A stretch of 44,044 nt of DNA from Leptolyngbya sp. 'hensonii' (lineage in GTDB: Bacteria; Cyanobacteriota; Cyanobacteriia; GCF-001939115): positions 1 through 44,044 of the forward strand of contig NZ_MQTZ01000013.1 in assembly GCF_001939115.1 (NCBI RefSeq), written 5' to 3'. Below the pieces are notes generated by a model. It worked only from the letters and a program-made list of their open reading frames with translations. It was not told the DNA's origin and made no database searches. Positions 4,063 through 7,014 of the stretch are shown piece by piece (within the stretch, counting starts at the first letter, position 1; each line of letters begins with the position of its first letter). Position numbers and translations under genes: made by a program.

Positions 4063-4440
4063 ATGACTGAAAATCCCAATATCAGACTGACCATCCACTT
4101 CAATGCCCCTGACCTGGACCTGGAAGAGCGCGACAAGCAGGCCCAACAGCTCATCACCGAACTGAAGGATCTAGATGAAGTGGACCGGGTCGATCGGATC
4201 CCAGATCCCAACCCCCCCAAAGACAACAAGACCCTGGGGGGGTTTGTGATTGGGTTACTCAAGGCAGAGGTGACGATCGGGAACGGGAAAAAGGTACTGG
4301 GCTTCCTGGGCGATCGGCTGGGGGGCAAGCCGATCGAACTCGCCGTCGAAGCCAACGGCAAGAAACTCTCAGTCAAAGCCCACAGCCGCGCCGAACTGGA
4401 AGCTGCGATCAAAGCGGCCCAGGACTTTATTGCATCCTAG
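4063..4440 (+). CDS. EACC1-like effector-associated protein
   Basis: This is a 125-residue soluble protein. It has a short N-terminal beta/alpha half (LTIHFNAPDLDLEERDKQAQ), an acidic/proline hinge (PDPNPPKDN), then a Gly-rich stretch (LGGFVIGLLKAEVTIGNG) and a final beta-beta-alpha part (PIELAVEANGKKLSVKAHSR). I recognise this layout as the effector-associated constant component 1 (EACC1) family. That family is described as a small invariant partner of caspase, trypsin, TIR and similar effectors in bacterial conflict systems; its molecular role is not established. The TAG stop abuts the GTG of the caspase gene directly, so the two are almost certainly translationally coupled. The Shine-Dalgarno sequence is weak. 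The family call rests on pattern memory and context, not on a profile search. Confidence 0.72.
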   Translation: MTENPNIRLTIHFNAPDLDLEERDKQAQQLITELKDLDEVDRVDRIPDPNPPKDNKTLGGFVIGLLKAEVTIGNGKKVLGFLGDRLGGKPIELAVEANGKKLSVKAHSRAELEAAIKAAQDFIAS

Positions 4441-6468
4441 GTGAGACCTGTGGCAAAGTTCGCCTTATTGATTGGGGTGAGTGAGTATGAGCCAGGGCTG
4501 CATCCCCTACCAGGAGCGGCGTTGGACATGGAGGCCATGCAGCGGGTCTTTATCCATCCCAAGATGGGCGAATTCCCCAAAGACTCTGTGATCAGCCTGA
4601 AGAACCCCCAGCGACAGGAGATGGAAGAGGCCATCTACCGGCTATTTGCCGATCGCCAGAAAGAGGATCTGCTCCTGTTCTATTTTTCTGGTCATGGCAT
4701 CAAAGATGAGACCGGCAGACTTTACCTGGCCACCCGTGGCACCCGCAAAGAGAACGGCAGCCTGGTCCCCCCTTCCGCCGTCGCCGCCACCTACCTGCAC
4801 GATCGGATCAACAGCAGCCGATCGCAGCGCCAGGTTCTGATCCTGGACTGTTGCTTCAGTGGCGCGATCGCCCACGGCATGACCGTGAAAGACGACGGCA
4901 CGATCGACCTGCAGGCCCAACTAGGCGGTAGGGGCCGCGCCATCCTCACCTCCTCAACAGCAGCAGAGTATTCCTTCGGAGCCGAGGGTGCAGACCCCGC
5001 CAGCCCCGGTCTTTCCGTTTACACCCGCTACCTAGTGGAGGGAATTGAGACAGGAGCCGCCGATCGGGATGGGGATGGGGCCATTGCCGTGGAAGAACTC
5101 CACGACTACGCCGCCCGACGGGTGAAGGAAGCGGCCCCAGCCATGACCCCCAAAATTTATCCAGTGGAGGAAGGATATCGGATCATCCTGGCCCGATCCC
5201 CCAAGGATGACCCCCGACTGAAATATCGCAAAGAGTTCCAGGCCCGAGTCGAAGCAGGCCAAGGCCAGATCTCCGGGTTTGCCCGCCGGTTACTGACCGG
5301 GAAGCGGCAGGAATGGGGGCTGCCAGAGGCTGAGGCCCAGGCGATCGAAGCCGAAGTGCTGCAACCCTACGAGGAGTACAAACGGAAACTGCAGGACTAT
5401 GAACAGGCCCTGGAAGACGAGATCGCCAAGGGATATCCCTTCTCTCCAGCCACCCAAAATGACCTGAAGGACTACCAGAAATATCTGGGCCTGCGGGATG
5501 GGGATATTGCAGCGATCGATGCCCGGTTGTTAGGCTCCCGACCAGTGCCCCCAGTTGCCCCAGATCCGGAACCAGCGCATCCGATCTTCAGCTTTGACGT
5601 GGTGCGGGTGAATGACCAGGGCCAGGAGATCGATCGGCAACGGCACCAGGCCGAGATATTTACCGAAGCCTTAGGCAACGGCGTGGACCTGGATCTGGTC
5701 AAAATTCCGGCAGGCCAGTTCATGATGGGGCAGACAGAGGCAGAGAAGCAGGAACTCCTGAAACAGGTGAGTGAGGCAGATTACCAGAAGTACTTTGCCA
5801 GAGAGTTGCCTCGCCATGAGGTTCATATCCTCCGCTTCTGGATGGGCAGATATCCCATCACCCAGGCCCAATGGCGCAGGGTAGCCGCCCTGCCCCAGGT
5901 GCAGCGGGAACTGCAGCCCGATCCCTCCCGCTTTAAGGGCGATCGTCTGCCGGTGGAACAGGTCAACTGGTGGGAGGCGGTGGAATTTTGCGATCGGCTC
6001 TCCCAGGCCACAGGCCATGCCTATCGCCTCCCCACAGAAGCCGAGTGGGAATATGCCTGTCGGGCCGGAACCACCAGTCCTTTTTATTTCGGGGCAACTA
6101 TCACCCCAGACCTGGCCAATTATGACGGCAATTACACCTATGGGGCAGGGCCAAAGGGAATTTATCGAGGGAAAACCACGGAGGTGGGGAGTTTTCCGCC
6201 TAACGCTTTTGGCCTCTATGACCTGCATGGCAATGTCTGGGAATGGTGTGCGGACCACTGGCATGACGGCTATGGGGCAAAACCAGACGCCTTAAAATTG
6301 AATGGAAATACCCCCTGGGAAACGGCTGAAACCAGCTCCCAGAGGGTCGCGCGGGGCGGTTCGTGGATCAACGGTCCGCGCGATTGCCGTGCCGCACTAC
6401 GCTACAGGTTTGCGCCAGGCGATCGCAACGACAATTGCGGTTTTCGGGTAGTTTGTGTTTCCGCGTGA
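4441..6468 (+). CDS. caspase-like protease fused to a DGR-diversified FGE/C-type-lectin-fold domain
   Basis: The protein has 675 residues and three parts. (1) A peptidase C14/caspase-like domain (about 5-250) carries the catalytic pair His85 (YFSGHG) and Cys138 (LDCCFSG). At 208-219 it has a canonical EF-hand loop, D-R-D-G-D-G-A-I-A-V-E-E. (2) A charged helical linker (about 255-365). (3) An FGE-sulfatase-like domain (about 415-675) with LPTEAEWEYACRAGT and GLYDLHGNVWEW. The first of the two redox cysteines of genuine FGE aligns with Asn644; Cys649 aligns with the second. This points to a ligand-binding C-type-lectin fold, not an enzyme. The last 39 codons form a DGR variable region. GTG 4441 abuts the EACC1-like stop. 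An in-frame GTG at 4450 with AGGTGAG just before it is an equally good start (672 aa). Inferred role: a calcium-sensitive death protease whose sensor tip can be rewritten. Confidence 0.92.
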   Translation: MRPVAKFALLIGVSEYEPGLHPLPGAALDMEAMQRVFIHPKMGEFPKDSVISLKNPQRQEMEEAIYRLFADRQKEDLLLFYFSGHGIKDETGRLYLATRGTRKENGSLVPPSAVAATYLHDRINSSRSQRQVLILDCCFSGAIAHGMTVKDDGTIDLQAQLGGRGRAILTSSTAAEYSFGAEGADPASPGLSVYTRYLVEGIETGAADRDGDGAIAVEELHDYAARRVKEAAPAMTPKIYPVEEGYRIILARSPKDDPRLKYRKEFQARVEAGQGQISGFARRLLTGKRQEWGLPEAEAQAIEAEVLQPYEEYKRKLQDYEQALEDEIAKGYPFSPATQNDLKDYQKYLGLRDGDIAAIDARLLGSRPVPPVAPDPEPAHPIFSFDVVRVNDQGQEIDRQRHQAEIFTEALGNGVDLDLVKIPAGQFMMGQTEAEKQELLKQVSEADYQKYFARELPRHEVHILRFWMGRYPITQAQWRRVAALPQVQRELQPDPSRFKGDRLPVEQVNWWEAVEFCDRLSQATGHAYRLPTEAEWEYACRAGTTSPFYFGATITPDLANYDGNYTYGAGPKGIYRGKTTEVGSFPPNAFGLYDLHGNVWEWCADHWHDGYGAKPDALKLNGNTPWETAETSSQRVARGGSWINGPRDCRAALRYRFAPGDRNDNCGFRVVCVSA

Positions 6469-6476
6469 GGACTCCC
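6350..6476 (+). repeat. DGR variable region (VR)
   Basis: These 127 bp cover the last 39 codons and the stop of the caspase/FGE gene plus 8 bp. They align without gaps to 6670-6796 (offset exactly 320). Substitutions relative to the template fall at 6373, 6374, 6382, 6398, 6403, 6408, 6409, 6410, 6419 and 6430. The template has A at each of these positions; the VR has G or T. Residues changed relative to the template reading are Gly645 and Asp648 (both from Asn), Leu653 (from Gln), Tyr655 and Phe657 (from Asn), Gly660 (from Asp) and Asp664 (from Asn); codon 656 changes silently. The eleventh difference (6470 G, template C) is not at an A. It lies at the 3' end, where DGRs carry the IMH site. 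Confidence 0.95.
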
Positions 6477-6669
6477 ATTGCCCTTTACCCTCTTGCCCTC
6501 TTGCCCTTTGCTCTATTCCCTTTACTCTGGGAGCGAGCGGAGCGAGCGATCAAATTATTTTTTCAATTCCTTGCCTGCCGTATCCCGACCAGGAAAAATG
6601 ACGTATGCTGAATCCACTCAGATTTCTCGCTCGTCGAGACCTGAGCTCGGGGCAGGCATACCGAACGGA

Positions 6670-6796
6670 CGCGGGGCGGTTCGTGGATCAACAATCCGCG
6701 CAATTGCCGTGCCGCACAACGCAACAGAAATGCGCCAGACGATCGCAACAACAATTGCGGTTTTCGGGTAGTTTGTGTTTCCGCGTGAGCACTCCC
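6670..6796 (+). repeat. DGR template region (TR)
   Basis: This is the downstream, non-coding partner of the variable region, in the same orientation. Read in the frame of the target gene it is open to the same TGA and is rich in Asn codons ([16 protein letters not shown], then DDRNNN), the usual look of a DGR template. It holds 28 adenines; 10 differ in the VR. Of the 99 other bases only one differs (6790 C). It has no start codon or Shine-Dalgarno sequence of its own and probably acts as RNA. In known DGRs such an RNA is copied by an error-prone reverse transcriptase that misincorporates opposite A. No such enzyme is encoded nearby. Confidence 0.94.
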
Positions 6797-7014
6797 CAAG
6801 GTCAGAACTGGTAGAAGGGATTCTATCGGGTGTACAGGGGGAGTCCAGACCTGTTCCGGCGAGGAAGGCAACGACCTCCAAAAATAAAGCAGGGTCGGTT
6901 AGCCTGGTAGGCGCAAGTCGAACGGTTGGCCGACCCAATCATTGAACATCCCCATCAGATAATGGAAAGATCCCAGCACTCTGTTTGTTGGGTTCCGCCA
7001 ACGCTTCACCGAAC
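6797..7014. other. TR-downstream spacer without a gene
   Basis: These 218 bp follow the template and hold no credible reading frame on either strand and no trace of a reverse transcriptase N-terminus. In the Bordetella phage DGR the spacer after TR is a functional part of the RNA used for cDNA priming, so this stretch may serve the same role (inference). Its right end carries an imperfect inverted repeat, GGTTC (6991-6995) with GAACC (7011-7015). That repeat overlaps the stop codon of the minus-strand gene and may terminate it. Confidence 0.45.

Follow-up and report, generated by a model that had tools for sequence, protein, structure and literature searches.

The window analysed here, a stretch of 44,044 nucleotides corresponding to contig C13 of a 5.94-Mb draft genome in 77 contigs, carries a caspase-like gene whose 3′ end is found again, in altered form, a short distance downstream. 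A previous sequence-only reading had interpreted this repeat as the mark of a diversity-generating retroelement (DGR) acting on a conflict-system gene. The locus contains neither a reverse transcriptase (RT) nor an Avd gene. Genomes, loci and contigs of the host genome are labelled G, L and C, respectively.

The repeat pair and its target gene

Realignment of the variable repeat (VR, positions 6350-6476, + strand) with the template repeat (TR, 6670-6796, + strand, containing 28 A) resulted in a gap-free match of 127 bases with 11 mismatches, in full agreement with what had been read from the letters alone. The mismatches, given as TR coordinate and TR to VR base, were A6693G, A6694G, A6702G, A6718T, A6723T, A6728G, A6729T, A6730T, A6739G, A6750G and C6790G, that is, six A to G, four A to T and one C to G change. 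Mismatches affected 10 of the 28 template adenines vs one of the 99 other bases, exactly as had been counted before, and the A-bias test gave a hypergeometric probability of 5.9e-7 for at least 10 of the 11 mismatches falling at A (28 A in 127 bases), bearing out the claim of adenine-specific change. The score used in the VR search tolerated A mismatches without requiring them, and the similarity between both copies ended abruptly on both flanks. The VR had been described as the last 127 bp of the gene; its location at the 3′ end of the caspase-FGE gene was correct, but the gene stops at 6468 and the VR extends 8 bases beyond the stop codon. Codon comparison recovered the seven altered amino acids previously announced (N-G, N-D, Q-L, N-Y, N-F, D-G and N-D from TR to VR), together with one synonymous change (AGA/AGG). 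The TR contains 13 variable codons, allowing about 4e12 protein combinations, and one of these codons, AGA, is convertible to a stop.

The single mismatch outside adenines, C6790G, is not noise; it is the boundary mark of the pair, an IMH-like position at 6470 (+ strand) where the VR carries G and the TR carries C at 6790. In this genome and those of other cyanobacteria, the VR showed G and the TR another base at this position in 70 of 84 TR/VR pairs, with AGGACT and AGCACTC as the typical boundary letters of VR and TR, respectively, and in known DGRs the boundary base is the site of the IMH/IMH* difference (PMC12875486). This difference is present in the window; the hairpin after the VR, clear in most relatives, was not called there. 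In the portion of the window pair located 5′ of the boundary base, non-A mismatches amounted to 0/93 and A mismatches to 10/27.

The target gene (4441-6468, + strand), assigned by Pfam and PDB matches, encodes a caspase domain (Peptidase_C14, residues 6-231, Pfam E 2.5e-19) and an FGE-sulfatase/CLec domain (residues 418-671, Pfam E 1.4e-52) that extends up to the C-terminus. Its nearest solved structures are PvdO (5hha, E 1.3e-28) and TvpA (2y3c, E 6e-25), the latter being the DGR protein of Treponema, and, judged by sequence, the VR is located at the 3′ end of a gene for a ligand-binding CLec/FGE fold. Caspase-CLec DGR targets of cyanobacteria are already known (PMC7517822), and a role in antigen sensing within conflict systems has been suggested for the targets of DGRs from this clade (PMC10907252, PMC7159879). 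From the caspase and CLec domains and from this literature (PMC7159879, PMC10907252, PMC7517822) we may reasonably infer that the target is a conflict-system gene. Directly 5′ of it, the ORF list contains a small ORF of 125 aa (4063-4440, + strand) that gave no Pfam match even at E 10; it would resemble the EACC1-caspase two-gene layout (PMC7159879) by position only.

Templating of the window VR by any other TR of the genome was rejected, as the comparison with the other four TRs gave 23-35 non-A mismatches vs one with its own TR. The window VR fits its own TR only, and therefore the missing part of the locus is the enzyme and not the template. An assembly error as the source of the second copy is unlikely: the flanks differ, both copies are inside the 44-kb contig, and the same arrangement is present in many other assemblies, single-contig genomes included. 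Duplication may in general leave part of a gene repeated behind it, and the pair might have been generated without reverse transcription if the gene end had simply been duplicated in tandem and the binding loop had then come under selection. Nothing in the window favours this explanation beyond such general possibility, and it is hard to reconcile with adenine-only differences, with a boundary mark common to RT-linked DGRs, with the DGR RNA tail that immediately follows the copy, and with orthologues that have identical TRs and diverge at A sites (see below), so that we give it practically no credence. The DGR interpretation of the repeats was sustained by the A-specific mismatches and the position of the VR at the 3′ end of a CLec/FGE-fold gene, and also by the DGR-type RNA after the TR and by three intact RT-Avd loci in the genome. 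We consider it virtually certain that they constitute a real DGR pair.

RT and Avd genes outside the window

No trace of RT or Avd was observed in the window, where RT matches stayed at chance level (tblastn, E up to 10); with no DGR-type RT in the cassette, the locus works like a DGR but is incomplete. Inspection of the genome revealed three intact Avd-RT-TR loci (contigs C31, C69 and C33), each of them adjoined by A-biased VRs. Both RT (PF00078) and bAvd (PF22296) were identified by Pfam, so that the two proteins are encoded in the same genome as the window. The motif YVDD is present in the three RTs, two of which are 66% identical to the first, and the best PDB match was 8ub7 (E 2.4e-50), which we take to be the RT of the BPP-1 DGR. 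In PADLOC the RT matched many RT families and nothing specific. Scans of the genus and the order contained this genome only, with no close relative for comparison.

The fifth TR of the genome, on contig C20, is not accompanied by an intact RT, a 41-aa RT remnant being located at L030 15082-15204. This locus (L030:14071-16785), the second RT-less TR of the genome, has three VRs; one of them, immediately preceded by a stop and belonging to a gene fragment, showed 8 A and 0 non-A mismatches over 115 bases. Two FGE genes located far from any RT (L043 on contig C9 and L044 on contig C77) end in VRs of the C33 and C31 templates, respectively, with 15 A and 5-6 non-A mismatches, so that VRs separated from their TR do occur in this genome. 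In the C31 locus (L027:9665-10834, − strand) a single open frame runs across the TR, the RNA tail and the downstream CLec target, and the targets of C69 and C33 (L028:3494-8828 and L029:5496-10481) are placed beside AAA ATPase and VMAP-C genes, in the layout of a ternary conflict system.

The RNA tail and the compact cassettes

The region 6790-6937 (+ strand, 148 nt) was predicted to form a structured RNA tail corresponding to a DGR scaffold/primer region. It was matched with 140.4 bits (E 1.1e-29) by a covariance model, R1, built from 54 RT-linked tails of other organisms with this genome left out. R1 matched exactly five places in the whole genome, which are the five TRs, and the window tail scored second among these matches. 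In RT loci of other organisms, the TR and the conserved tail were found directly 3′ of the RT in 76 of 80 cases. RNAalifold analysis of the 54 RT-linked tails gave 38 pairs, 32 of them with double-sided changes, and the window tail itself folded with an MFE of −60.3 kcal/mol (z −3.84); as expected of a DGR, a structured RNA adjoins the TR. In the tails of 21 RT-less cassettes, 94.6% of the cells were paired vs 83.6% after shuffling, and 28 of 41 pairs showed double-sided changes vs 16.1 after shuffling; the structure was above all 500 shuffles, and slid controls were at most 46% paired. Rfam gave no match at the window tail at gathering cut-offs, and at a looser threshold RF02921 (RT-14) scored 46.4 bits there vs a cut-off of 48.1. 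Since the only matches above the RT-14 cut-off among the 16 loci scanned (L280:902-1048 and L330:4201-4347) correspond to RT-less cassettes, it is probable that this model misses part of the RT-linked RNAs of the same family. A TR 3′ end plus tail-like sequence was also observed on plasmids from laboratory strains of unicellular cyanobacteria, namely NC_010480.1 (95183-95303, Picosynechococcus PCC 7002) and NZ_CP016476.1 (32003-32123, PCC 7003). No DGR RT was detected in G083.

The spacer between VR and TR shows the same order in the window and in Nostocaceae cassettes: stop codon, GGACT, polypyrimidine tract, GC-rich element with T run, AT-rich part, GGGGCAGG leader and TR. The polypyrimidine tract (6472-6529, + strand; best 40 nt 88% pyrimidine) is a candidate target-side element. 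At least 85% pyrimidine in the best 40 nt was found after 32/37 RT-less VRs and 27/45 RT-linked VRs, vs 0% after TRs and 0.7% of random windows. A 40-60 nt tract of this kind (AGCCCTTTACACTCTTGCCCTTTTGCCC...) follows most other VRs too (L264-L363, C31, C69) and never TRs, usually with a GC hairpin and T run at its end. It may serve cyanobacterial DGRs in target recognition; no paper naming a post-VR polypyrimidine tract was found in the literature search. Next to it, the spacer alignment revealed a GC-rich GGGAGCGAGCGGAGCGAGCGATC element followed by an AT/T run (6529-6564, + strand), a candidate terminator position that occupies the same place as the hairpin and T run of other cassettes. The promoter/terminator scan of the window called no site on the + strand, with neither a terminator nor a clear promoter 5′ of the TR. 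The GGGGCAGG leader 5′ of the TR (6649-6656, + strand) is shared by the compact cassettes and the RT-linked locus of C69. In Nostoc punctiforme the RT-linked locus shows strong expression of its TR RNA (PMC12691664), and N. spumigena has a strong start site 199 nt past the DGR1 RT (PMC3610870), which makes it plausible that the cassette has its own promoter.

These elements conform to a compact layout consisting of VR, spacer of about 190 nt, TR and tail. We propose a lineage defined by this layout, by no RT within 2 kb and by a tail belonging to an RT-less clade, and the window presents these three features. The TR-VR distance was 312-330 in 21 of 23 compact cassettes, with 320 in the window, vs a median of 1743 in RT-linked loci, a gap of approximately the size of avd and RT together. 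When 173 tails were arranged in a tree, the window and 24 compact cassettes fell inside a clade of 51 tips (48 RT-less, support 0.79), and 87 of the 122 tails outside it were RT-linked. The changes between RT-linked and RT-less states were 24 vs at least 49 in shuffles, on a tree of about 150 sites with modest support and non-independent tips. The lineage is not purely RT-less, since L099 and L235 are RT-linked members, L348 has an RT fragment and L208 adjoins the clade. This last locus, from G245, is a compact cassette with a TR-VR distance of 358 and an RT about 600 nt 3′ of the tail, an alternative gene order. Caspase, protein kinase and TIR domains were identified in targets of RT-less cassettes, some of which have CLec alone, and the stripped-down RT-less design recurs in dozens of other cyanobacteria.

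The 190-nt spacer of the window aligned end to end with that of RT-less cassettes from about 20 other genomes, some of them single-contig. This alignment bears on the explanation that the species has an RT in cis that was lost from this strain or from its assembly, for which the draft state of the genome (77 contigs) and the coexistence of intact and RT-lacking variants in Thiohalocapsa (PMC10907252) might be invoked. The locus lies inside one gap-free 44-kb contig and its spacer is shared with RT-less cassettes of single-contig genomes, and a loss of this kind is very improbable in our view.

Regarding the abundance of these cassettes, R1 matches were found in 37 and the RT profile in 33 of 386 genomes of the phylum, and among Nostocaceae the tail RNA was present in more genomes (103/218) than the DGR RT, RT fragments included (59/218). 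The 147 listed Nostocaceae tails comprised 60 beside an intact RT, 6 beside an RT fragment and 81 beside neither. Those 81 RT-less tails were distributed into 24 from genomes with an intact RT elsewhere, 7 from genomes with a fragment only, and 50 from genomes with no RT detected, RT absence being based on up to 9 scored candidates per genome. The persistence of RT-less cassettes by itself thus needs no resident RT, as 50 of the 81 tails belong to genomes without a detected DGR RT. RT-less tails were somewhat more frequent in genomes with an intact RT (22/49 vs 47/169 in the others, P 0.035, kinship ignored), and the VR was kept in 16/26 cases with an intact RT in the genome vs 21/57 (P 0.056), with distant VRs missed by the 4.2-kb fetch around tails. 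Clean diverged pairs with no DGR RT detected in the genome scan were observed in G408, G492, G459, G521 and G231; no DGR RT was found in G103 and G231 with all candidates scored. Clean cassettes without a detectable RT could be due to a recent loss of the enzyme, to a replicon absent from the assembly, to an RT overlooked by the search or to a transiently present plasmid. DGR RTs of the same type occur on cyanobacterial plasmids from Anabaena, Fischerella, Nostoc, Acaryochloris and Microcystis.

Comparison of orthologous RT-less cassettes from G245, G103 and G231, in non-independent pairs, revealed identical TRs (136 or 129 bases) in genes encoding proteins 95%, 76% and 75% identical. Their VRs differed at 21/32, 15/28 and 17/28 template adenines vs 2/104, 2/101 and 0/101 other sites, and G245 has an intact RT at least 1.7 Mb from the cassette. 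The VRs of G492 and G459 differed at 16/27 template adenines vs 1/107 other sites, and the RT-less pair of G284, with a TR-VR distance of 319, showed 14/26 A and 0/103 non-A mismatches. From these patterns, being RT-less does not appear to mean being dead. Decaying RT-less pairs were also found in G042 (17/27 A, 15/102 non-A), G483 (15/27 A, 22/102 non-A) and G405 (15 A, 14 non-A). The pooled non-A mismatch rate was 3.1% in RT-linked pairs and 5.1%, 5.8% and 7.7% in RT-less pairs with an RT, a fragment or none in the genome, respectively; since these rates are above that of the RT-linked class, some RT-less members are decaying.

The clear decay of these three RT-less pairs would fit the idea that the window is a fossil cassette, derived from a complete DGR that lost Avd and RT, with a VR that is the frozen product of past activity and a tail surviving for want of time. 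The lack of any RT or Avd trace in the window, the RT fragment that is all that C20 of the same genome retains, and the RT-less Nostoc TR-VR that was called a remnant (PMC7517822) point in the same direction. The window pair, however, has 0/93 non-A mismatches and is as clean as active-looking RT-linked pairs, and its tail score (140 bits) is among those of RT-linked tails, with stems kept via double-sided changes. Three intact RTs in the genome and a compact RT-less form common to distant cyanobacteria also speak against a fossil, which we consider unlikely.

Probable action in trans and relation to known systems

The explanation that we favour, and regard as likely, is that the window contains a non-autonomous, RT-less DGR cassette served in trans. 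As the cassette has no RT or Avd of its own, any activity must be in trans, the enzymes involved probably being supplied by other loci of the genome. According to this proposal, the TR (6670-6796) and the tail (6790-6937) would probably be part of one transcript, whose tail would be recognised by an RT-Avd complex from another genomic locus. Copying of the TR by the complex would be error-prone at adenines, and the cDNA so produced would take the place of the VR, located 320 bp upstream at the end of the caspase-CLec gene. As many as 13 codons for the binding surface of the lectin fold could be altered in this way, in a target with a putative sensor role. Weighing against this proposal are the RT-less tails of genomes without a detected DGR RT, the raised non-A mismatch rate of the RT-less class and the failure of the scan to reveal a clear promoter 5′ of the TR. 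As for the present activity of the window cassette, judged from the single genome available in its order, we consider the chances even. The most interesting part of the locus, absent from the sequence-only reading, is that a cassette without RT or Avd belongs to a recurring RT-less lineage.

The cassette is similar to the cyanobacterial caspase- and kinase-CLec DGRs (Vallota-Eastman 2020, PMC7517822; RT clade 5E of PMC10907252) in the VR at the CLec 3′ end, the A-specific change, the caspase or kinase N-terminus, the kind of RT and the kind of host. Those DGRs were found via their RT, whereas the window locus has none; the one RT-less TR-VR described among them, all3226 in PCC 7120, is the pair that was termed a remnant (PMC7517822). 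In the degenerate loci of Thiohalocapsa PB-PSB1, diversification of targets in trans by a remote RT was likewise inferred (PMC10907252), but the VRs of that system correspond to the TR belonging to the complete locus, whereas the window keeps a private TR and tail and would borrow the enzyme only. The Bordetella phage BPP-1 DGR (PMC12875486, PMC3240598) shares the RT-Avd pair, the structured RNA after the TR and the IMH/IMH* difference. In that system RT-Avd is recruited, and cDNA synthesis primed, by the spacer located 3′ of the TR, and the TR-RNA is functional when expressed away from the operon (PMC12875486). BPP-1 differs in its avd-TR-RT order in cis, the cyanobacterial order being avd-RT-TR-tail and the compact form having neither gene. 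The Rfam RT-14 RNA (RF02921) spans the whole tail (1-144 of 144) and scores above the cut-off in the RT-less loci L280 and L330, the window falling just under it.

Caspase-CLec DGRs, one RT-less Nostoc TR-VR and trans action are each known singly. No description of a widespread RT-less DGR lineage was found in the searchable literature, outside which most subscription journals lie; nor did these papers mention its conserved layout, its covarying tail or the preferential divergence of its orthologues at adenines. A further possibility, which we put forward tentatively and regard as rather doubtful, is that RT-less cassettes constitute an old, self-standing 'satellite' DGR lineage, rewritten in RT-lacking genomes by transient (e.g., plasmid) or unrecognised RTs.

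DGR searches generally start from the RT, and for this reason a cassette made of target, template and tail is invisible to them; a survey states that it would itself miss remote targets (PMC8144416). If such cassettes are served in trans, one RT would diversify several templates and immune-type sensors at once, DGR repertoires would be larger than counted, and the tail RNA would be a portable tag for targeted mutagenesis.
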